Assembly: GCF_013267195.1 (NCBI RefSeq)
Contig: NZ_CP053941.1
Coordinates: forward strand, 2,046,001 to 2,110,000
Direction of reading: 5' to 3'
From: Halorubrum salinarum
GTDB lineage: Archaea; Halobacteriota; Halobacteria; Halobacteriales; Haloferacaceae
Length of the DNA: 64,000 nucleotides
In this document: positions 1,917 through 32,786 of the stretch, piece after piece
Layout: the number at the start of each line of letters is the position of its first letter
How positions within the stretch are numbered: the stretch's first letter is position 1
Program-made: the position numbers and the translations under genes
Notes under the pieces: model-generated
Databases searched by the model: none
Told to the model about the DNA's origin: nothing
The model's input: only the letters and a program-made list of their open reading frames with translations

Positions 1917-4148
1917 ATGAACGACACCGCAGGGCTCCGGCTCACGGTGCGTGCCGCCGAGAAGCGGGACGCGGGCCGGGGCATCGCCAGGCTCCCCGAG
2001 TCGGCCCGCAAGCGGCTCGCCCTCCTCAGCGGCGACACAGTCGAGGTGCGCGGCGAGCGCACCGCGGTCGCGAAGGTGTGGCCGGGCGGTCCCGACGCGC
2101 CAGACGGCTCCGTCCTCATCGACGCCGACACCCGCGCGAACGCCGGCGTGAAGGTCGGCGACACCGTGACGATCGCCCCCGTCGACGTGTCCGACGCCGA
2201 GCGCGCGACGCTGACCGCGCCCGGCCGCCTCGCGGAGGTGGACGTGAGCCGCGAGGTGGTCGAGCGGGCGCTCTCCCGGGAGCTCCGCGACCGCCCCGTC
2301 ACCGAGGGCGAGGCCGTCCACGTCGAGCGGCTCGGCGGCCTCCGCTTCGTGGTGGCGCGGACGGCGCCGGCGGGGACCGTCCGGATCACGGCGTCGACGG
2401 ACGTGTCGGTCGAGTACGCCGGCCACGGGGCGGGCGCGGCCGACAGCGCCGGCCCGTCGGCGGACGACCGGTCCGCGCCCGCCGCTGACTCGGGGGCTGA
2501 TCCCCCGGGAGCCGACGCCCGACCGAAGGGCGGCGACGCCCCGCCGGCCGAGCACACCGCGGGCGCGACCTACGAGGACATCGGCGGGCTCGACGAGGAG
2601 CTGGAGCTGGTCCGGGAGACGATCGAACTGCCGCTCTCCGAGCCGGAGGTGTTCACCCGGCTCGGCATCGACCCGCCGAAGGGCGTCCTCCTCCACGGGC
2701 CGCCGGGGACCGGGAAGACGCTCATCGCCCGCGCCGTCGCCAACGAGGTGGACGCGACGTTCATCACCGTCGACGGCCCGGAGATCATGTCGAAGTACAA
2801 GGGGGAGTCGGAGGAGCGGCTCCGCGAGGTGTTCGAGCGCGCCAGCGAGGACGCGCCGGCCATCGTCTTCTTCGACGAGATCGACTCGATCGCGGGCAAG
2901 CGCGACGACGGCGGCGACGTGGAGAACCGCGTCGTCGGCCAGCTGCTCTCGCTAATGGACGGGCTCGACGCCCGCGGCGACGTGATCGTCATCGGCGCGA
3001 CGAACCGCGTCGACACTATCGACCCCGCGCTCCGACGCGGCGGGCGGTTCGACCGCGAGATCGAGATCGGCGTCCCCGGCGAGTCCGGGCGCCGACAGAT
3101 CCTCGACGTCCACACGCGCCGGATGCCGCTGGCCGACGACGTGGACTTGGACCGGATCGCGGGCCGCACCCACGGGTTCGTCGGCGCCGACATCGAGGGG
3201 CTCGCACAGGAGGCGGCGATGACCGCGCTCCGGCGCGCCCGCGAGTCCGACTCCCGCGCGCTGAACGAGGTGACCGTCTCCAAGGCGGACTTCGAGGCCG
3301 CGCACGCGAACGTCGAGCCGAGCGCGATGCGAGAGTACGTCGCCGAGCAGCCGACGACCGACTTCGCCGACGTGGGCGGGCTCGACGACGCGAAGGCGGA
3401 GCTCGACCGCGCCGTGACGTGGCCGCTGTCGTACGGCCCGCTGTTCGACGCGGCGGGCGCGGACCCGCCGACCGGCGTCCTGCTGTACGGCCCGCCGGGG
3501 ACCGGGAAGACGCTGCTCGCGCGCGCCATCGCGGGCGAGAGCGGCGTCAACTTCATCCAGGTCGCGGGGCCGGAGCTGCTCGACCGGTACGTCGGCGAGT
3601 CGGAGAAGGCGGTCCGCGAGCTGTTCGACCGGGCGCGGCAGGCGGCCCCCGCGATCGTCTTCTTCGACGAGATCGACGCGGTCGCGACCGACCGCGACGC
3701 GGCCGGCGGCGACGGATCCGGCGTGAGCGAGCGCGTCGTCTCCCAGCTCCTGACCGAGCTCGACCGCGCCAGCGACAACCCGAACCTCGTCGTCCTCGCG
3801 GCGACGAACCGGCGGAACGCGCTCGACCCGGCCCTGCTCCGTCCCGGCCGACTGGAGACGCACGTCGAGGTGCCCGAGCCGGACCGCGAGGCCCGGCGCA
3901 AGATCCTGGAGGTTCACACCCGCGAGAAGCCGCTGACGGACGGGGTCGACTTGGAGCGCGTCGCCGACGAGACGGAGGGGTACTCCGGCGCGGAGATCGC
4001 CTCGCTGTCGCGGGCGGCCGCGATGCGCGCCATCGAGCGCGTCGCCGACGAGCACGGCGAGGCCGCCAACGACCACGCCGACGAGGTCGGGATCACCGGG
4101 GAGGACTTCGACGCGGCGCTCGAGTCCGTCCGCCCCGAGACCGCCTGA
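1917..4148 (+). CDS. CDC48/VAT-type AAA+ ATPase with two ATPase domains
   Basis: The product is a 743-residue hexameric AAA+ unfoldase of the CDC48/p97/VAT group, which extracts or unfolds proteins in the cytoplasm. An N-terminal VAT-N double-psi barrel region (about 1-167) is followed by an unusually long Ala/Asp/Pro-rich linker (about 168-216). D1 has Walker A GPPGTGKT near 261 and Walker B IVFFDEID near 316. D2 has Walker A near 525 and IVFFDEIDAV near 580. The frame is open far upstream, but the ATG at 1917 begins the recognisable VAT-N domain; the upstream extension is an artefact of high GC. Haloarchaea carry several CDC48 paralogues, and this one looks like a non-canonical member because of the linker. 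Confidence 0.9.
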   Translation: MNDTAGLRLTVRAAEKRDAGRGIARLPESARKRLALLSGDTVEVRGERTAVAKVWPGGPDAPDGSVLIDADTRANAGVKVGDTVTIAPVDVSDAERATLTAPGRLAEVDVSREVVERALSRELRDRPVTEGEAVHVERLGGLRFVVARTAPAGTVRITASTDVSVEYAGHGAGAADSAGPSADDRSAPAADSGADPPGADARPKGGDAPPAEHTAGATYEDIGGLDEELELVRETIELPLSEPEVFTRLGIDPPKGVLLHGPPGTGKTLIARAVANEVDATFITVDGPEIMSKYKGESEERLREVFERASEDAPAIVFFDEIDSIAGKRDDGGDVENRVVGQLLSLMDGLDARGDVIVIGATNRVDTIDPALRRGGRFDREIEIGVPGESGRRQILDVHTRRMPLADDVDLDRIAGRTHGFVGADIEGLAQEAAMTALRRARESDSRALNEVTVSKADFEAAHANVEPSAMREYVAEQPTTDFADVGGLDDAKAELDRAVTWPLSYGPLFDAAGADPPTGVLLYGPPGTGKTLLARAIAGESGVNFIQVAGPELLDRYVGESEKAVRELFDRARQAAPAIVFFDEIDAVATDRDAAGGDGSGVSERVVSQLLTELDRASDNPNLVVLAATNRRNALDPALLRPGRLETHVEVPEPDREARRKILEVHTREKPLTDGVDLERVADETEGYSGAEIASLSRAAAMRAIERVADEHGEAANDHADEVGITGEDFDAALESVRPETA

Positions 4149-12289: not shown

Positions 12290-12430
12290 AAGCCCCGCCC
12301 CGCACGGCACCTCACACCTCCCCAGCCTCGCCGCTCGCTCCCTCCGGTCGCTCGCGGCGTCCCTCGCGCGTGCTGTCTCGCGCCCTCCGGGCGCTCGCAG
12401 GCACGCGCCAGCGCACTTCGACTGCCAGGC
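12290..12430 (+). repeat. GC-rich dispersed intergenic repeat, copy 1
   Basis: This stretch lies in the 298-base gap between the hypothetical gene and pelA. It shares ordered blocks with a second copy near 24.7 kb in the opposite orientation: CCTCCCCAGCCTCG, TCCCTCGCGCGTGCT (copy 2 has ACGC in the middle) and AGGCACGCGCCAGCGCACT (copy 2 differs at two positions). Between the blocks are short alternating motifs such as CGCTCGCTCCCTCCGGTCGCTCGCGG that can fold back. Spurious reading frames run through it on both strands. It carries no obvious gene and looks like a non-coding repeat family. Confidence 0.55.
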
Positions 12431-24687: not shown

Positions 24688-24820
24688 TCAGTGCGGTGGC
24701 GCGCGCCTCCGAGCGGCCGCCGCTGGCGGCCGCGAGGAGCGCGTGCGAGGGAGTCGCTGGGGGCCGAAGCGGAGCGAGGCCGCCAGCGACGAGGCTGGGG
24801 AGGCGCGAGGCTGCGGTTGC
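24688..24820 (-). repeat. GC-rich dispersed intergenic repeat, copy 2
   Basis: Read on the minus strand, this stretch shares the blocks CCTCCCCAGCCTCG, TCCCTCGCACGCGCT and AGGCGCGCGCCACCGCACT, in the same order, with the copy at 12290-12430. Sequence between the blocks differs in length and composition. Like copy 1, it follows the 3' end of a gene and contains internal fold-back motifs (GCGGCCGCCGCTGGCGGCCGC). Confidence 0.55.
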
Positions 24821-24915
24821 GGTACGGGTCGAGAATCGGTTGGGGCTCCGACGGCCTTCGTCGCCGAACAGCTACCGATAATCGATCCATAAGCGACCGT
24901 CTCGTCCGGGCGCGT

Positions 24916-25875
24916 TCACGCCGGGTCCCGGTAGTCTCGGTCCTCGTCGGCGTGCGCGCGGACCCACAGCTCCCCGATCCGCGAGAGGCTCGTCCGGTAG
25001 GACTTCCCGTGCTCCTCGCGCTCGATGTACCCCTTCCCGCCGGGGCCGAGCCGGTCGACGTTGTAGATGACCTTCGAGCGGAACGACTCCGTGTACTCCT
25101 CGTTGAGCTCGGCCGCGAGCGTCTCCGCCAGCTCCGACACCGACTCGAACTCGCCGTGCTCGCCGAGCGTGAACAGCACCAGCTCCTCGAACGGCTTGAC
25201 GTTCTGGAACGAGGCGACCGGCAGCTCGATCACGTGGCGGTCGCCGATGCGCTTCGCGCCGATGGTGGTGCCGCGCTCGTCGAACTCGGCGAGCAGGTCC
25301 GTGGTGCTCGCCAGGCGGTCGGCGACGCGGTCGGGGTCGACGCCCGCCTCGGCGATGGCCTCGTCGCTCGCGCCGTCGAGGTCCTCCAAGAGGTCCCGCG
25401 TCGCGCGCAGCTCCTCCGCCAGTTCGGTCTCCAGGTACTTCTCGGGGGCCGTGTAGTAGGTGTGGATGCGGTCGCGGTCCGCCTGCCGCTCGACCATGAT
25501 CGAGTGCGCGGCGGTCGCGAACGCGAACGAGACGGGCCGAGGCATCGAACAGAGGTTCACCCACACCTCGCGGTCGTCGGCGTCGTCGACGCCCTCGTCG
25601 CGGTCCAGTTCGGCGTTGATCAGGTCGAAGGCGCGCTCGAAGGCGGCGTCGTAGTCGTACACGTCGTCCAAGCGTTCCCGGACCGTCTCGGCCCCGAGGA
25701 GGTTCTGAAAGTCCTGTTCGAGCTTGCGCGCGATGTTCCGAGAGTACTCGACGTTGGCCTCGCTGCCGACGGCGCCCTCCAAGAGGATCACGCGGTCGAC
25801 GTCGAACTGGTCCCGGATGAGGGGGGCGATCATCCGGTCGTAGTCGAACCCGACGGGCACGACGTGGGTCTGCAT
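24916..25875 (-). CDS. HFX_2341-type transcriptional regulator
   Basis: This 319-residue protein belongs to the haloarchaeal HFX_2341 (DUF6293) regulator family. The N-terminal half (HVVPVGFDYDRMIAPLIRDQ, then DRVILLEG) has the look of a Rossmann-like ligand-binding domain and recalls CARF domains. The C-terminal quarter (about 225-300; ELVLFTLGEHGEFESVSELA, then SKVIYNVDRLGPGGKGYIER) looks like a winged helix. Ligand and targets are unknown. The ATG at 25875 is 27 bases after a strong TATA box. The promoter and first 19 codons are duplicated at 27451-27551, on the far side of an inserted histidine-kinase gene. Confidence 0.8.
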   Translation of the reverse strand: MQTHVVPVGFDYDRMIAPLIRDQFDVDRVILLEGAVGSEANVEYSRNIARKLEQDFQNLLGAETVRERLDDVYDYDAAFERAFDLINAELDRDEGVDDADDREVWVNLCSMPRPVSFAFATAAHSIMVERQADRDRIHTYYTAPEKYLETELAEELRATRDLLEDLDGASDEAIAEAGVDPDRVADRLASTTDLLAEFDERGTTIGAKRIGDRHVIELPVASFQNVKPFEELVLFTLGEHGEFESVSELAETLAAELNEEYTESFRSKVIYNVDRLGPGGKGYIEREEHGKSYRTSLSRIGELWVRAHADEDRDYRDPA

Positions 25876-25919
25876 ACCCTGACCGTGGGTGTGGGATTTA
25901 TAAAAACCACCAGATCGCT
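25819..25919. repeat. 101-base direct repeat, left copy
   Basis: This segment contains codons 1-19 of the HFX_2341-type gene, its start region, an imperfect inverted repeat (CATACCC-N7-GGGTGTG, 25873-25893) and its TATA box. It matches 27451-27551 at 99 of 101 positions. The differences are at 25873 (c here, t in the other copy, which destroys the start codon there) and 25917. Confidence 0.9.
25897..25906 (-). promoter_or_regulatory. TATA box of the HFX_2341-type gene
   Basis: TTTTTATAAA on the minus strand is centred 27 bases before the ATG at 25875. It is one of the strongest TATA elements in the window and is duplicated exactly at 27529-27538. Confidence 0.65.
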
Positions 25920-26033
25920 TTAGCACGTGCGTGTTCGACCCGAACCCTAACCGACGAGTCCGTGTCTGAACGCCGATCCGTGAGAGGCACAACGTATATA
26001 AAATTTTAAATAATGTTTATATTCGAGTATCTC

Positions 26034-26040
26034 GTATAAT
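26034..26040 (+). promoter_or_regulatory. TATA box of the histidine-kinase gene
   Basis: GTATAAT is centred 27 bases before the ATG at 26064. Two further AT-rich elements lie upstream, at about 25993-26010 and 26015-26022, so more than one start site is possible. Confidence 0.5.
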
Positions 26041-26063
26041 TGTTAGCTTGGAATACTCCTCGC

Positions 26064-27182
26064 ATGGCTGCCCCGTTAAGATCGGTTAGTAAAACAACAT
26101 CCCGGTTTAACGCTCGGTACCTATACGCTGGCGGCCTCTGTGCGATCACGATCCCCCTCGCGATTCTCGGTGTAGAACACGTGTTCCGGTCGACGAACGA
26201 ACCCGGATCTCCCGGTCTCAAGGCCGGTGTCATCGTCATCCTCAGTGTGGCCGTCCTCGGAACCGGCTGGGCCGCGAACCGCTGGAGTGAGACCGCCGAC
26301 CGGTTCGGGACGACTATCCGCGTCGGCACCGCGTTCGGCGCGTATGGGTTCGGTATCGCGGTCCTCATCTCGACGGCGCACACGCTCGGGGCAGGAGCGG
26401 CACTTGACTGGAGCTTCATCGTCGCTGTGGGCGGGCTGGCCGGACTGGCCGTCGGCATTCCGATCGGCGATGGCTACGCGAAGCTACGACGCCAAAGGGT
26501 GGTCGAGAGGCTACAAAAGGACCAATTACGGCGGAACTCGCGACGTATGAGGATCCTCTACCGCGTCGCGCGGCACAACATTCGGACGGAGGCCAACATC
26601 ATGCTCGGGTACACGGACCTCATCGCGGGGACCGCCCATGGTCCTACCCAGGAGTACGCCGACACCTTACGCGAACACGCGTCCCGACTCGAAAGGATAT
26701 CGAAGAACGTGCGTCGGCTTCGCCGCATCTGGGAAACGTCTGAGGAGGCCGTCGAAACGTCGATCCAATCGCTTACCGAACGAGCGCTGTCCAAGAACCA
26801 GTACCGAGAGTCCGAGCGTCTCACGCTGGCGCTGGACGACGACGCGATAGTCGCTTCCCCCCCGTTCGCCCACTGGGCACTCGAAGAAGCCGTCGACAAC
26901 GCCCTGACGCACACCGATGACGACACAGCGGTCACCGTCCGAACCGAGAACCTCGACGACTGTGTCCGCTTGATCGTCGAAGACGACGGCCCGGGGATCC
27001 CACCGATCGAAGTCAAATCGCTGGGCAACAAGACCGAATCACAACTCATGCACGGCCAGGGACTCGGGTTACAGGTGATCCACTGGGCCATGGAGGTCTC
27101 CGACGCCTCGCTTTCGATTACGGAGCGCGAGTCGGGTGGCACGCGTGTCCTGATGGAGTTCCCCGTGGAACGGTCCGAATAG
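26064..27182 (+). CDS. Membrane histidine kinase
   Basis: This 372-residue protein has four predicted membrane segments (about 20-40, 53-71, 85-108 and 115-135) and no extracellular sensor domain of any size. A HisKA-like dimerisation region follows, with the phospho-accepting His near residue 171 in RVARHNIRTEANIMLGYTDL, a variant of the haloarchaeal RHNLRN box. The ATPase domain has N box EEAVDNALTHTDDD (near 275), G1 DDGPGIP and G2 GQGLGLQ. No cognate response regulator is adjacent. Its base and codon use differ visibly from neighbours, and it is enclosed by direct repeats, both signs of transfer. The ATG at 26064 is preferred to an upstream TTG. Confidence 0.88.
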   Translation: MAAPLRSVSKTTSRFNARYLYAGGLCAITIPLAILGVEHVFRSTNEPGSPGLKAGVIVILSVAVLGTGWAANRWSETADRFGTTIRVGTAFGAYGFGIAVLISTAHTLGAGAALDWSFIVAVGGLAGLAVGIPIGDGYAKLRRQRVVERLQKDQLRRNSRRMRILYRVARHNIRTEANIMLGYTDLIAGTAHGPTQEYADTLREHASRLERISKNVRRLRRIWETSEEAVETSIQSLTERALSKNQYRESERLTLALDDDAIVASPPFAHWALEEAVDNALTHTDDDTAVTVRTENLDDCVRLIVEDDGPGIPPIEVKSLGNKTESQLMHGQGLGLQVIHWAMEVSDASLSITERESGGTRVLMEFPVERSE

Positions 27183-27375
27183 TTCAACCCGGTGCCGAGT
27201 CCGTCATCGACTACGGTACCGTCCCGTTAGCGCGTCTCCGATCCGAAACGAGAGGTTGCGGACCAACGCGCCGACTCGACCGAGAGGGCGCCTCCGACGA
27301 ATCGCCGTCCCCCAGCGGTACAGGCGAGCACCAAAATTAAAGTTCCTATAAGTACGATGACTTGTCAATATCTCT

Positions 27376-27450
27376 ATGGCGGGCCGGTGTACGTACCGAT
27401 TCGATCCCGAGGAGGGGTACGGGGAGGGAGGCACCGTCGTCGGGAGCGAG
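27376..27450 (+). pseudogene. Possible truncated gene start at cassette end
   Basis: An ATG at 27376 lies about 30 bases after CCTATAAG and opens a haloarchaeal-looking peptide (MAGRCTYRFDPEEGYGEGG). The frame then runs into the repeat and continues antisense to the copied HFX_2341 start, to a stop at 27672 that overlaps the nadC 3' end. The segment before 27451 may be the beginning of a gene cut by the rearrangement. The evidence is weak, and it may be non-coding. Confidence 0.25.
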
Positions 27451-27507
27451 GAGGGGGGCGATCATCCGGTCGTAGTCGAACCCGACGGGCACGACGTGGG
27501 TCTGTAT
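27451..27507 (-). pseudogene. 5' fragment of HFX_2341-type gene, start codon lost
   Basis: These 57 bases correspond to codons 1-19 of the regulator gene at 24916-25875. The initiator is ATA, and the frame is cut by the cassette junction at 27450. With an intact TATA box 27 bases upstream, it could still be transcribed, towards the end of the histidine-kinase gene and antisense to the short frame at 27376. Confidence 0.7.
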
Positions 27508-27551
27508 ACCCTGACCGTGGGTGTGGGATTTATAAAAACCACCAGATCACT
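27451..27551. repeat. 101-base direct repeat, right copy
   Basis: This copy is 99/101 identical to 25819-25919, in the same orientation and 1,632 bases downstream. It retains the TATA box (27529-27538) and 19 codons of the HFX_2341-type gene, but the start codon reads ATA instead of ATG. Confidence 0.9.
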
Positions 27552-27616: not shown

Positions 27617-28441
27617 CTACCCGTCGCCTCCCGTCCGGAACGACAGGTCGAGCGCCGGCGCGGAGTGCGTGAGCCCGCCCATCGAGATCACGTCGACGCC
27701 GGTCCCGGCGTAGTCCGGGACGGCCTCCACCGTGATACCGCCCGACGCCTCGGTCAGCGCGTCGCCGTCCGCGGCGGCCACGCGCTCGACCGCGGCCGCC
27801 GTTTCCGCGGGCGTCATGTTGTCGAGCAGGACCACGTCGGCGCCGGCCGCGGCGGCGCGTGCGGCTGCGTCGGGCCCCTCGACCTCGACCTCGACGTTCG
27901 TCGCGAAGGAGGCGCGCTCGCGGAAGCGCTCGATCGCCTCCGTCAGCCCCAGCTCCGCGACGTGGTTGTCCTTGACCATGACCATGTGCGAGAGGTCGAG
28001 CCGATGGGTGTCGCCGCCGGCGGCCGCGACCGCGCGCTTCTCTACTCCCCGGAGCCCGGGCGTCGTCTTGCGCGTGGCGGCGACCCGGACGTCCGGATCG
28101 ACCTCGCGGGCGGCCTCAACCGCGGCGTCGGTCCGCGTCGCCACTCCCGAAGCGTGGGCCGCGACGTTCACGGCGACGCGCTCGCCGCGGAGGACCGCCC
28201 TCGCCGGGCCCGCGACCCGCAGCAGCGCGTCGCCCGGGTCGACGGCGGTCCCGTCCGCGACGCGCTCGGTCACAGTCGCGTCGAGGTAGTCGAACACGGC
28301 GCTCGCGGCGTCGACGCCGGCCGCGACGCCGGGCTCTTTCGCGACGAGCCGGCCGCTCGTCTCGCCCGGCACGTCGTTGGTCACGTCGTGGTGGCCCACG
28401 TCCTCGCGGAGCCAGCGCTCCACGTCGGCGTCGGTGAGCAT
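27617..28441 (-). CDS. nadC: Nicotinate-nucleotide pyrophosphorylase (carboxylating)
   Basis: NadC converts quinolinate and PRPP to nicotinate mononucleotide, the last step of the de novo branch of NAD synthesis encoded here. The 274-residue protein has ERVAVNVAAHASGVAT, RVAATRKTTPGLR (substrate-binding Arg and Lys), GGDTHRLDLSHMVMVKDNH, VEVEVEGPD, VVLLDNMTP and EASGGITVEAVPDYA. Its ATG shares one base with the nadB stop codon (TGATG). It is the last gene of the nadA-nadB-nadC operon. Confidence 0.95.
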   Translation of the reverse strand: MLTDADVERWLREDVGHHDVTNDVPGETSGRLVAKEPGVAAGVDAASAVFDYLDATVTERVADGTAVDPGDALLRVAGPARAVLRGERVAVNVAAHASGVATRTDAAVEAAREVDPDVRVAATRKTTPGLRGVEKRAVAAAGGDTHRLDLSHMVMVKDNHVAELGLTEAIERFRERASFATNVEVEVEGPDAAARAAAAGADVVLLDNMTPAETAAAVERVAAADGDALTEASGGITVEAVPDYAGTGVDVISMGGLTHSAPALDLSFRTGGDG

Positions 28442-29979
28442 CAGTCGTCCGCCGCCGGCCCGGGTTCGGCGGGCTCGGCGTCGTCCGCGACGTAGTGCGT
28501 CCCGACGCTCTCGCCGTTCGCGAGCGCCTGTCGAGTCACGAGCAGCGCCGTCACGGTCGCGTTCCGAAGCTCGTAGAGCGACCGCGAGGTCCGAGTCCGG
28601 ACGTACGCGTCGACCTCCCCCTTCAGGCGCCGGAGCACGCCGAGCGCCCGGCGGAGTTCGGTCGGGTCGCGCTCGATCCCGACGTGCTCGCCCAGCACCC
28701 GGCGGAGCCGTCGGAACTTCTCGCGGGCGAACGCCGGCGGGAGATCCGGGTCGCGGTCCAACAGCTCCGGGGGCGCGACGCGCTCCGGGTTCGCGGGCGT
28801 CCCGCCGGACTCGGCGGCGTCGGCGCCGGCGCGGAGCCCCCAGACGAGCCCTTCGAGGAGGCTCGTGGACGCGAGGCGGTTCGCCCCGTGGACGCCGGTC
28901 CGCGCGCACTCGCCGACCGCGTAGAGCCGGTCGAGGCTCGCCCGCCCGCGGTCGTCGACGGCGACGCCGCCACAGAGGAAGTGCTCGGCGGGCGCGACGG
29001 GGATCCCCTCGGCGGGGTCGACGCCGCGGTCGGCGCACTTCTCGGCGAGGCCGGGGAACGCGCCCGCGAAGTCGAGCGGCCCCACGTCGAGGCGGACCTC
29101 GCCCGTGGCCTCGCGCTCGGCGGCCACGGCCCGCGAGACCACGTCGCGCGGCGCGAGCTCGGCGTCGTCGTGGTAGGCGGGCATGAACCGCTCGCCGTCG
29201 CCGTTACGCAGCAGCGCGCCCTCGCCCCGGACCGCCTCGCTGACGAGGAACCCCTCCTCGTCCGGGCCCGCGTCGTACGCCGTCGGGTGGAACTGGACGA
29301 ACTCCATGTCGGTCACGTCGGCGCCCGCGAGCGCGGCCATCGCGACCCCGTCGCCGGTGGCGCCGCGCGGGTTCGTCGACCGCGGGAACAGGTCACCGAT
29401 CCCGCCCGTCGCGAGTACGGTCGCGCCCGCGTACACCGAAAAGCGACCGTCGTCCGACGCCACGACGGCCCCGTGGACGCGCCCCTCGCGCGCGATCAGT
29501 TCGAGCGCCGCGGCGTCGTCGACGACCTCGACGCCGTCGCGCCCGTCGAGGTGGTTCAAGAGGGGGACGTGGACGTGCTCGCCCGTCGCCGCGCCGACGT
29601 GGAGGATCCGGTCCTCGCCGTGGGCCGCCTCGCGGCCGTAGTCGAACGCGTCGCCGCCCGCCTCGCGGTCGAACTCGACGCCGAGCGCGTCGACGAGCAC
29701 GTCCCGGACGGCGTCGTCGGCGTTCTCGACGAGCACGTCGACAGCGTCCGGGTCGGCCGTCCCGTCCGAGGCCGCCAGCACGTCGCGCTTGAACCGCTCC
29801 GGCCGGCCGCGCGCGACGGCGATCCCGCCCTGTGCCCACCACGACGCGGCGTCCGCCGGGCGCGTGGCCTTCGTCGCCACCGTCACCTCGCGTCCCTCGC
29901 GCGCGGCGGCGAGCGCCGCCGTCAGTCCGGCGATCCCCGAGCCGACGACGAGCACGTCCGCGGTCTCGTGGTCCGTCAT
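28441..29979 (-). CDS. nadB: L-aspartate oxidase
   Basis: NadB oxidises L-aspartate to iminoaspartate, which NadA uses to form quinolinate. The 512-residue flavoprotein begins with the FAD dinucleotide fold (DVLVVGSGIAGLTAALAAA). It has the fumarate-reductase/aspartate-oxidase blocks SWWAQGGIAVA, VLATGGIGDLFPRSTNPRGA, EFVQFHPTAYD, CGGVAVDDRGRASLDRLYAV and HGANRLASTSLLEGLVWG. It is packed between nadA (one base gap) and nadC (one base shared), indicating a single transcript. Confidence 0.95.
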   Translation of the reverse strand: MTDHETADVLVVGSGIAGLTAALAAAREGREVTVATKATRPADAASWWAQGGIAVARGRPERFKRDVLAASDGTADPDAVDVLVENADDAVRDVLVDALGVEFDREAGGDAFDYGREAAHGEDRILHVGAATGEHVHVPLLNHLDGRDGVEVVDDAAALELIAREGRVHGAVVASDDGRFSVYAGATVLATGGIGDLFPRSTNPRGATGDGVAMAALAGADVTDMEFVQFHPTAYDAGPDEEGFLVSEAVRGEGALLRNGDGERFMPAYHDDAELAPRDVVSRAVAAEREATGEVRLDVGPLDFAGAFPGLAEKCADRGVDPAEGIPVAPAEHFLCGGVAVDDRGRASLDRLYAVGECARTGVHGANRLASTSLLEGLVWGLRAGADAAESGGTPANPERVAPPELLDRDPDLPPAFAREKFRRLRRVLGEHVGIERDPTELRRALGVLRRLKGEVDAYVRTRTSRSLYELRNATVTALLVTRQALANGESVGTHYVADDAEPAEPGPAADD

Positions 29980-29980
29980 C

Positions 29981-31111
29981 TCACACCTCCAGCATGCGGT
30001 CGAGGGCGACGCGCGCGAGGTCCTTCTCCTCGGGCGCGACCTCGACGACGTTGCGCTCGCGGCCGGCGGCCAGCTCTTCGAGCACCCACGCGAGGTAGTT
30101 CGGGTCGATCTGGCGCATCGCGTTACAGTCCATGCACGCCTCGCCGCAGAGCGGGACGACGTTCACCTCCGGGTGCCACCGCTGGAGGTGGCGGGTCAGG
30201 TGGACCTCGGTCCCGATGGCCCACGTCTCGCCGGGCTCGGCCTCGGCGACGGTCTCGCGGATCGTCGCGGTGGACCCGACCACGTCCGCCGCCTCGACGA
30301 CCTCCCGGCGGCACTCGGGGTGGACGACCACCCGCGCGTCCTCGTGGTCCGCCCGGACCCGCTCGACGTGCGACGGGCTGAACCGCTCGTGGACCTGACA
30401 GTAGCCGTCCCAGAGGATCACGTCGTTGTCGACGACCGCCGCCGCGTCGGCGGACGCGGCGTCCCAGGGGTCCCACTCGGCGATCTCGTCTTCGAGCCCG
30501 AGCCGGTGAGCGGTGTTCTCCCCGAGGTGCTTGTCGGGGAGGAACAGCACCTTGTCGCCCTCGTCGAGCGCGTACTCGAAGGCGCGGTCGGCGTTCGAGG
30601 AGGTACACACCAGCCCGCCGTGCTCGGCGCAGAACGCCTTGAGGTCGGCGTAGCTGTTCATGTAGGTGACCGGCACGACGTCCGCGTCGGTCGCGGCCGT
30701 CAGCTCCGCCCACGCCGCGTCGACCTGGAGCGCCTCCGCCATCCCCGCCATCGGGCACGACGCCTCCATGCTCGGGAGCACGACCGTCTGGTCGTCGTCG
30801 GTGATGATGTCGGCGGACTCGGCCATGAACGTGACCCCGCCGAAGACGACGTACTCCGCGTCGGCCGCGGCGGCTTCCTTGCTCAGTTGGTAGGAGTCGC
30901 CGACGAAGTCGGCGTGCTCGACGATCTCCCGCCGCTGGTAGTTGTGACCGAGGATCACCACGTCGTCGCCGAGCGCGTCCAGCGCCCCCTCGATCCGTCG
31001 CGTTCGCTCGCTCTCGTCGAGGTCGCGGTATTCAGATGGAAGCTGTTCGAGATTGTCGTATTTGAAGAGACTGAGTTCGGTATCGAACTCGGCGGTTTCC
31101 ATTGCTGGCAT
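29981..31111 (-). CDS. nadA: Quinolinate synthase
   Basis: NadA condenses iminoaspartate with dihydroxyacetone phosphate using a [4Fe-4S] cluster. The 376-residue protein has VVILGHNYQRREIVEHADFVGDS at the N-terminus. Candidate cluster cysteines are in SCPMAGMA, LVCTSSNA and CGEACMDCNAM. The conserved MNSYADLKAF, FLPDKHLG and HPECRREVVEAADVVGST are all present. Two ATGs lie close together (31111 and 31102); the first is given. It heads the nadABC operon. No NAD-responsive regulator is visible next to it. Confidence 0.95.
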   Translation of the reverse strand: MPAMETAEFDTELSLFKYDNLEQLPSEYRDLDESERTRRIEGALDALGDDVVILGHNYQRREIVEHADFVGDSYQLSKEAAAADAEYVVFGGVTFMAESADIITDDDQTVVLPSMEASCPMAGMAEALQVDAAWAELTAATDADVVPVTYMNSYADLKAFCAEHGGLVCTSSNADRAFEYALDEGDKVLFLPDKHLGENTAHRLGLEDEIAEWDPWDAASADAAAVVDNDVILWDGYCQVHERFSPSHVERVRADHEDARVVVHPECRREVVEAADVVGSTATIRETVAEAEPGETWAIGTEVHLTRHLQRWHPEVNVVPLCGEACMDCNAMRQIDPNYLAWVLEELAAGRERNVVEVAPEEKDLARVALDRMLEV

Positions 31112-31478
31112 TCTGAGTCTCCGTCGCGTATTCGCTCACAGAACTATGTCGTGAAAAGATTTTGTCTTCAATAGTTCGGTTTGGCTAGTCGTATACTCTC
31201 CGAGTCCGTTCAGAATCGCGATCTTCGAACGGTACGTACGGTCTCGCCGGCGAACTCCGGATCGTGGGTCGGTGACCCCTCTGCGGGGTCGCGGACCGAG
31301 GGCCGAAATTCGCGGACTGCGAGCCGGGCGGACCGCGAGCGCGCGGTTGGCTCTCGCCCCGGACGGCCCGTCGAGCGAGCGCGCCTCGTGGTCCTCGGGC
31401 TTGGCGGCCCTCGCGGTTCCCCGTGCGAGTGCCGCCTCCCCTACGATTATCATGTGCCATGCCGTACCACTACACGGT
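31112..31478. other. 367-base divergent intergenic region (nadA / formamidase gene)
   Basis: The left third is comparatively AT-rich and probably carries the nadA promoter (near 31140-31150). The middle contains a short hairpin (GACCCC-TCTGC-GGGGTC near 31272) and GC-rich sequence with no gene. The right end carries the TATA element of the formamidase-like gene (GATTATC at 31445-31451) and the beginning of an inverted repeat at its start. Confidence 0.55.
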
Positions 31479-31483
31479 ATGGC
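31456..31483 (+). promoter_or_regulatory. Inverted repeat over the start of the formamidase-like gene
   Basis: GCCATGCCGT (31456-31465) and ACGGTATGGC (31474-31483) are inverted arms matching at 9 of 10 positions around 8 bases. The repeat covers the region from just after the TATA element to the ATG at 31479. It could be a repressor site or an mRNA hairpin hiding the start codon. Confidence 0.45.
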
Positions 31484-32786
31484 GCAAACAGAGGTCAAAG
31501 AGGAGCTGTACGTCGACCAGTACACGCTCGGGCTCGTCGGGCCCGACCAGGAGTGGGCCGGGACGGTCGCGGACGGCGGGACGGTGACGACGTACACGCC
31601 GCCGGGCTGTTGGGGGCCGATGGTGACGCCCTCGTTCCGCGGCGGCCACGAGGTGACCCGCCCGATCCGCGTCGAGGGCGCCGAGGTCGGCGACGCCGTC
31701 GCGATCCACATCCGTGACGTGGAGGTGACGAGCATGGCCACCAGCACGGGGTCGATGGCGGAGCGCGACGAGGCGTTCGGCGACGACCCGTTCGTCGACC
31801 ACCGCTGCCCGGAGTGCGGGACGACGTGGCCCGACTCCGTCGTCGAGGGCACCGGCGAGGACGCGATCCGCTGTGCGGAGTGCGGGGCCAACGCCTCCTC
31901 GTTCGGGTTCGAGTACGGCTACACCGTCGCCTTCGACCACGAGAACGCGGTCGGGATCACGCTCGATAAAGACGGCGCCCACGCGCTCGCGACCGACGCC
32001 GAGCGCGTGATGGACATCCCCGAAAACGCCCGTCAGCACCCGATCCTGCTGTACGAACCCGACGAGATGCCCGGCACGCTCGGCCGGCTCCGCCCGTTCA
32101 TCGGCAACATCGGGACGACGCCGCCGGTGACGATGCCCGACTCGCACAACGCGGGCGACTTCGGGCAGAACCTCATCGGCGCCGACCACGACTACGGCGT
32201 CGAGACCGAGGCGGACCTGGACCTGCGCACCGACGGCCACATGGACGTGCCCGAGGTCCGCGCGGGCGCGACGCTGATCTGCCCGGTCGCCGTCGACGGC
32301 GGCGGGGTCTACGTCGGCGACCTCCACGCGAATCAGGGCGACGGCGAGCTCTCCCTCCACACCACCGACGTGAGCGGGACGGTCACGATGGACGTGGAGG
32401 TGATCGAGGACGTGGACCTCGACGGCCCCGTCCTGCTCCCGAACGAGGAGGACCTCCCGTTCATCAGCAAGCCCTACAGCGACGAGGAGGTCGCCGCGGG
32501 GGACGACCTCGGCGCGGAACACGGCGTCGACGTGGACACCGACGCCGCCCCGATCCAGGTGATCGGCTCCGGCGCGACCGTCAACGACGCCACGCAGAAC
32601 GCCTTCGACCGCGCCGGGACGCTGCTCGGCATGAGCGAGGGCGAGGTCCGCGCCCGGTGTACCTTCACCGGCGGCGTCCAGATCGGTCGGCTCCCGGGGG
32701 TCGTCCAGCTCGACATGCTCGTGCCCGCGGACGTGCTGGCGGAGTCGGGCCTCGACGACGTGACGCGCGAACAGTACGGGCTGTAA
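31479..32786 (+). CDS. Acetamidase/formamidase family amidohydrolase
   Basis: The family releases ammonia from formamide, acetamide or related amides. The 435-residue protein has YTPPGCWGPMVTPSFRGGHE, VEGAEVGDAVAIHI, HMDVPEVRAGATLICPVAVDGGGVYVGD-type and DLHANQGDGE segments of the FmdA fold. It carries an inserted zinc ribbon in the N-terminal third (CPEC near residue 110 and CAEC near 131), absent from many bacterial members. The ATG at 31479 lies about 31 bases after GATTATC. An inverted repeat covers the start, suggesting control by a regulator that is not encoded nearby. Substrate specificity is not certain. Confidence 0.87.
   Translation: MAQTEVKEELYVDQYTLGLVGPDQEWAGTVADGGTVTTYTPPGCWGPMVTPSFRGGHEVTRPIRVEGAEVGDAVAIHIRDVEVTSMATSTGSMAERDEAFGDDPFVDHRCPECGTTWPDSVVEGTGEDAIRCAECGANASSFGFEYGYTVAFDHENAVGITLDKDGAHALATDAERVMDIPENARQHPILLYEPDEMPGTLGRLRPFIGNIGTTPPVTMPDSHNAGDFGQNLIGADHDYGVETEADLDLRTDGHMDVPEVRAGATLICPVAVDGGGVYVGDLHANQGDGELSLHTTDVSGTVTMDVEVIEDVDLDGPVLLPNEEDLPFISKPYSDEEVAAGDDLGAEHGVDVDTDAAPIQVIGSGATVNDATQNAFDRAGTLLGMSEGEVRARCTFTGGVQIGRLPGVVQLDMLVPADVLAESGLDDVTREQYGL

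Follow-up and report, generated by a model that had tools for sequence, protein, structure and literature searches.

How did a histidine kinase gene of Halorubrum salinarum come to lie between two copies of the 5' end of a neighbouring gene? Within the window (the whole stretch of 64,000 nucleotides analysed here), positions 25819-25919 and 27451-27551 are direct copies identical at 99 of 101 positions in a pairwise comparison, and the slightly wider unit 25816-25919/27448-27551 retains 97% identity over 104 nt. A genome-wide search located the repeat exactly twice in the entire 3.34-Mb genome. Each copy comprises the promoter and the first 19 codons of the HFX_2341-type gene (PF19810), and in copy 2 the start codon is mutated from ATG to ATA. 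The first-pass annotation of this DNA had described the repeat pair and the duplicated unit in the same terms, and both descriptions hold. So does its report of neither transposase, nor integrase, nor terminal inverted repeats: the open reading frames and Pfam domains included no such gene, the repeat search listed no inverted pair at the borders, and the locus does not qualify as a transposon or insertion sequence.

Table 1 Features of the HFX_2341 locus (positions within the window)
Feature	Position	Strand	Basis and remarks
HFX_2341-type (crr-like) regulator, complete; 5' end a putative attachment site	24916..25875	-	PF19810 HFX_2341_N 4.8e-23 and DUF7776; genus orthologues
Repeat copy 1 (putative attL)	25819..25919	-	intact gene: first 19 codons with ~45 bp of promoter; core as in attL of other elements
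AT-rich region upstream of the kinase	25920..26063	+	GC 0.44; arm test 51/300 shuffles, not significant
Predicted orphan membrane histidine kinase (putative cargo), intact	26064..27182	+	HATPase_c, GC3 0.76
Pentapeptide-repeat gene, promoter and ~27 codons	27297..27447	+	homology to the gene of six other species
Repeat copy 2 (putative attR)	27448..27551	-	apparently displaced HFX_2341 5' fragment with old promoter; start codon ATA
nadC-nadB-nadA, older HFX_2341 neighbour	27617..31111	-	without kinase in G011 and others
Presumed acetamidase/formamidase-like gene (fmdA), far border of the variable interval	31440..32786	+	start approximate

Content of the insert

The bracketed DNA (25920-27450) has a GC content of 0.605, against 0.719 for the window, and only two of 624 windows of 1,531 bp, both of which overlap it, reach so low a value; the visibly AT-rich character reported earlier thus corresponds to the GC minimum of the window at the 1.5-kb scale. 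Third codon positions of the kinase gene are also GC-poor (GC3 0.76; neighbouring genes 0.93-0.98). Its product of 372 amino acid residues carries hydrophobic helices at the N-terminus, an H-box (RHNIR), the motifs DNAL, DDGPGIP and GQGLGLQ, and a HATPase_c domain (E=2.6e-16) with N and G boxes, and is predicted to be an orphan membrane histidine kinase. Among 392 genomes of the order, the kinase family occurs only in the genome of the window (G000) and in G038 (E<=1e-55), flanking HFX_2341 in both, and a search of GTDB contigs found no relative closer than that of G038. The G038 kinase (L049 4869-6035) is 44% identical, lies divergent from HFX_2341 with fmdA directly next to it, and is not accompanied by a 5' fragment.

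The kinase had been taken as the only gene of the insert. It is intact, but the insert also contains the 5' part of a pentapeptide-repeat gene, which stops where copy 2 begins. Homology to this gene is clear up to 27415, the last 32 bp before copy 2 excepted. A long form of the gene adjoins HFX_2341 in six other species (G049, G022, G006, G035, G010 and G021), one relative matches Pfam Pentapeptide_3, and the gene was not found elsewhere in G000. In G035 (L043 from about 6980) and five relatives it is very long, with 907 residues in the stretch read.

The locus in related genomes

In the sister species G011, about 92% identical in this region, a single repeat copy joins HFX_2341 to nadC and the kinase is absent. 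This is the arrangement that the first-pass annotation had anticipated in relatives, and as an empty site it supports the proposed foreign nature of the cassette. Conservation of kinase and repeats in distant haloarchaea, named beforehand as evidence against such an origin, was not seen, the kinase family being confined to G000 and G038. Copies 1 and 2 and the single copy of G011 have one lineage-specific promoter in common. Across the genus, the interval between HFX_2341 and fmdA is empty or occupied by nadCBA, the pentapeptide-repeat gene, a kinase (G038) or other DNA.

An integrase clade at the HFX_2341 5' end

In other genomes, duplicated HFX_2341 5' ends accompany tyrosine recombinases. 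A self-repeat search of the relatives' loci revealed a second 5' fragment downstream of the gene in G041, adjoining a truncated tyrosine-recombinase gene, and a genus search found a stray fragment on a separate contig of G014, directly beside a tyrosine recombinase. The eight nearest relatives of the G014 integrase in the 392 genomes (67-72% identity; eight genera, four families) all lie 60-80 bp from an HFX_2341 5' fragment. Thereafter identity falls to 55%, and none of 22 less similar integrases stands beside such a fragment. The fragment next to the integrases encodes MQTH[IV]VPVGFDYDRLIA. The G014-type integrases formed a single clade with a support of 100/100 in a tree with only three outgroup rows, and they belong to the SNJ2-type tyrosine integrases (42% identity to the SNJ2 integrase over 99%).

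Seven elements of 4.5-20.9 kb could be resolved, each composed of the complete gene, cargo, integrase and fragment, all in one orientation, with HFX_2341 codons 1-18 as the repeat (49-54 of 54 positions identical). In a pattern census the att core was present in 358 of the 392 genomes; 13 had two cores, always on the same strand. Four further two-core loci carry a truncated or broken integrase beside the fragment, and G041 is the fifth. The elements have a GC content of 0.42-0.55 and HFX_2341 one of 0.61-0.68. The two promoters are identical at 15-29 of 50 positions in most elements and at 42 in G382. Elements of different genera share a conserved arm upstream of the reconstituted gene (47-97 bits, leave-one-out). 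This attL arm is still recognisable in three species with the pentapeptide-repeat gene (24-28 bits; shuffles <=1.3) and had no match in nine of ten empty-site genomes. Viral contigs yielded neither an attP nor a close relative of the G014-type integrase, and phages and plasmids gave integrase matches only below 60%.

Restriction-modification and methyltransferase genes are among the cargo. The 20.9-kb element of G313 (L169 and L170) contains type I restriction-modification genes, that of G204 a type IIG/PglX-like methyltransferase and that of G041 a DUF1156-type methylase, all of them predicted defence cargo. The pattern census recorded two att cores in G363.

Comparison of the window locus with the elements

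The window locus follows the same plan: codons 1-18 recur as a direct repeat, the complete gene lies at one end and the fragment at the other in the same orientation, G011 provides the empty site, and the insert is low in GC. Its repeat edge falls at nt 57 of HFX_2341, that of the other elements at about 48-57. The distance of 1.6 kb between the copies is the smallest among such loci, and the two promoters are identical at 44 of 50 positions. No integrase of the clade or remains of one were detected in 25900-27460. The conserved arm, which in the elements spans ~130 bp ahead of the reconstituted gene, is not recognisable either, as the score of 14.6 bits stems from the promoter part alone; beyond about -48 beside copy 1, 51 of 300 shuffles matched the attL arm equally well. 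The stretch between the pentapeptide-repeat fragment and copy 2 resembles an integrase-proximal remnant by eye (CTCGCTCCCG), yet 138/1000 and 185/1000 random windows were as good, and this candidate was rejected. Without integrase and recognisable arm, the window copy is therefore a relic or a recombination product. It is probably a relic of an integrase-clade element at the HFX_2341 5' end and, lacking the integrase, is not counted as a member.

Origin of the insert

We consider the repeats to be the scars (attL and attR) left by an integrative element for which the HFX_2341 5' end (codons 1-18) served as attB, with a probability of roughly 60%. The empty site, the repeat edges, the layout and the integrase family at HFX_2341 in other genomes are observed; on the proposed reading, an SNJ2-type tyrosine integrase would have recombined a circle bearing the same core into codons 1-18. 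Since the core lies inside the coding 5' end, integration leaves HFX_2341 without its own promoter, and both a promoter and codons 1-18 have to come from the circle. The chromosome would thus have kept a complete HFX_2341 (copy 1) under the promoter brought by the circle, followed by the kinase and the pentapeptide-repeat gene as cargo, and the displaced old 5' end with its promoter would have become copy 2, beside nadC. A later deletion may have taken away the integrase together with the conserved attL arm and the greater part of the pentapeptide-repeat gene, and the start codon of copy 2 would have been lost. Promoters identical at 44 of 50 positions require a donor element of the same lineage or gene conversion, and we infer that one or the other, the conversion being later, accounts for them. 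The near-identity of the repeats had previously been read as a sign of a recent event. This is a weak argument, because the genus shows strong conservation of codons 1-19, G011 has the promoter half in common with the repeats, and the integrase and the attL arm are both already gone. As insertions recur at HFX_2341, the HFX_2341-fmdA interval is, across the genus, a hotspot for cargo (nadCBA, the pentapeptide-repeat gene, the kinase family), which probably arose by the erosion of successive elements.

The same arrangement might also have formed without an integrase, through the stacking of two hotspot alleles, HFX_2341-promoter (P)-kinase-pentapeptide gene and HFX_2341-P-nadCBA, by illegitimate recombination. 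The alleles would have paired homologously within HFX_2341/P on one side and been joined on the other through a short homology (GAGGGGGGCGATC) between the pentapeptide-repeat gene and HFX_2341 codon 19. The related kinase of G038, which occupies the corresponding position with no fragment, the pentapeptide-repeat gene as single occupant elsewhere, the lineage-specific promoter common to copies 1, 2 and G011, and the absence of arms and integrase from the window locus are all consistent with such an event. It requires, however, a chance join at nt 57, inside the edge of the att core of ~10 nt (~1% of the 960-bp gene), and the layout is that of the other fragment-bearing loci, all of which have an integrase or its remains. 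Because the integrase and the arm are absent, the flank of copy 2 is not significant, the promoters are alike and the start codon is lost, we place the eroded element at the probability given above and grant the stacking of alleles a minor though appreciable chance; the window copy was probably made by an integrase and not by illegitimate exchange between two alleles, and the order of decay proposed here is tentative.

Integration of a circle by Campbell-type homologous recombination through the 101 bp would give an identical product, and haloarchaea recombine readily. Such a tract is nevertheless short, and the match of the repeat edge to the integrase core would be left unexplained, which makes this route improbable. 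The circle envisaged by the first-pass annotation comes close to the preferred reading, which differs from it in an integrase acting on the attachment core. Its other proposal, repair of a staggered break with a long target-site duplication around unrelated DNA, agrees with an insert devoid of mobile-element genes. Here, though, the content is specific to the locus, with kinase and pentapeptide-repeat gene at the same HFX_2341 flank in other species, and the edge of the repeat falls at the attachment core of an integrase clade at the same gene; this proposal is not supported and very improbable.

Relation to known systems

Like SNJ2-type integrases and elements (betapleolipovirus SNJ2, HHPV4), resident HFX_2341 elements have an intact integrase, 42% identical, adjoining one att repeat. 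The integration sites discussed in a review are mostly tRNA genes (PMC8371274), whereas the HFX_2341 elements use the 5' end of a protein gene; the window copy differs further in its lack of an integrase and of any identified virus gene. Coding genes are already known as targets of archaeal integrases, and the review names HMG-CoA reductase, a cation efflux gene and AsnC (PMC8371274). The streptococcal SpyCI islands likewise integrate at the start of a conserved coding gene, the 5' end of mutL serving as attB, so that insertion changes the promoter of the gene, and SpyCIM5, whose integrase is broken and which has a rescuing promoter, can be likened to the window locus (PMC4129442). In contrast, SpyCI cuts mutL off from the promoter of its operon, with excision acting as the switch, whereas the HFX_2341 elements bring the core and a conserved promoter arm; SpyCI is bacterial, and its integrase is presumably unrelated. 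In the openly available papers searched, no report of HFX_2341 as attB was found, and HFX_2341/DUF6293 is named only in the crr study of Haloferax mediterranei (PMC11434293). That study concerns the same target gene family, and its passages covered do not describe crr as an attachment site. The use of the HFX_2341 5' end as attB thus appears to be new; integration into coding genes and 5'-end islands are already known.

Possible consequences for regulation

According to the crr study, HFX_2341 (crr) of Haloferax mediterranei is a global repressor whose overexpression strongly lowers cas mRNAs, and the crr locus, where a putative transposable element lies, is the main hotspot of self-spacers (PMC11434293). 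Judged from the element sequences, each insertion would part HFX_2341 from its old promoter and leave it under that of the element. As crr represses cas genes, this promoter swap could affect immunity. Cas1 was present in 7 of 14 carriers of the element and in 124 of 378 other genomes (Fisher p=0.25), and G000 itself gave no Cas1 match; given both results, an effect on immunity is no more than hypothetical. We assign low odds to a broader scheme in which an integrative-element lineage targets the 5' end of a CARF-type cas repressor, the element promoter reprograms host regulation including CRISPR immunity, and decayed copies leave kinase, NAD synthesis and pentapeptide genes behind as a hotspot. 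If the interpretation is correct, the start of HFX_2341/crr, a gene of most haloarchaea, would serve a distinct integrase clade, spread across several genera and families, as attachment site, insertion would give a global repressor, which acts on cas genes as well, a different promoter, and element decay would explain the unrelated cargo between HFX_2341 and fmdA. The site may also bear on the self-spacer hotspot in Haloferax mediterranei. A palindromic operator around the HFX_2341 TATA box was considered and dropped (3 of 45 promoters with p<0.05, mean p 0.51).

Accessory genes and repeats around the locus

Of the 53 species of the genus, 12 have nadA, and the patchy nadCBA genes lie mostly at the HFX_2341-fmdA hotspot, which suggests that de novo NAD synthesis is accessory in the genus. 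In G043 (L045 5424-5546), only the last 41 codons of nadC are left beside HFX_2341, a remnant of a lost nadCBA cassette. On the other side of the regulator, a GC-rich dispersed repeat of ~140 bp (24692-24837) separates cofH from HFX_2341. It has three copies in the window (the others at ~12294-12417 and ~4009-4086) and matches in 46 loci of relatives, often two to four per locus and at varying positions, and is possibly a miniature element.
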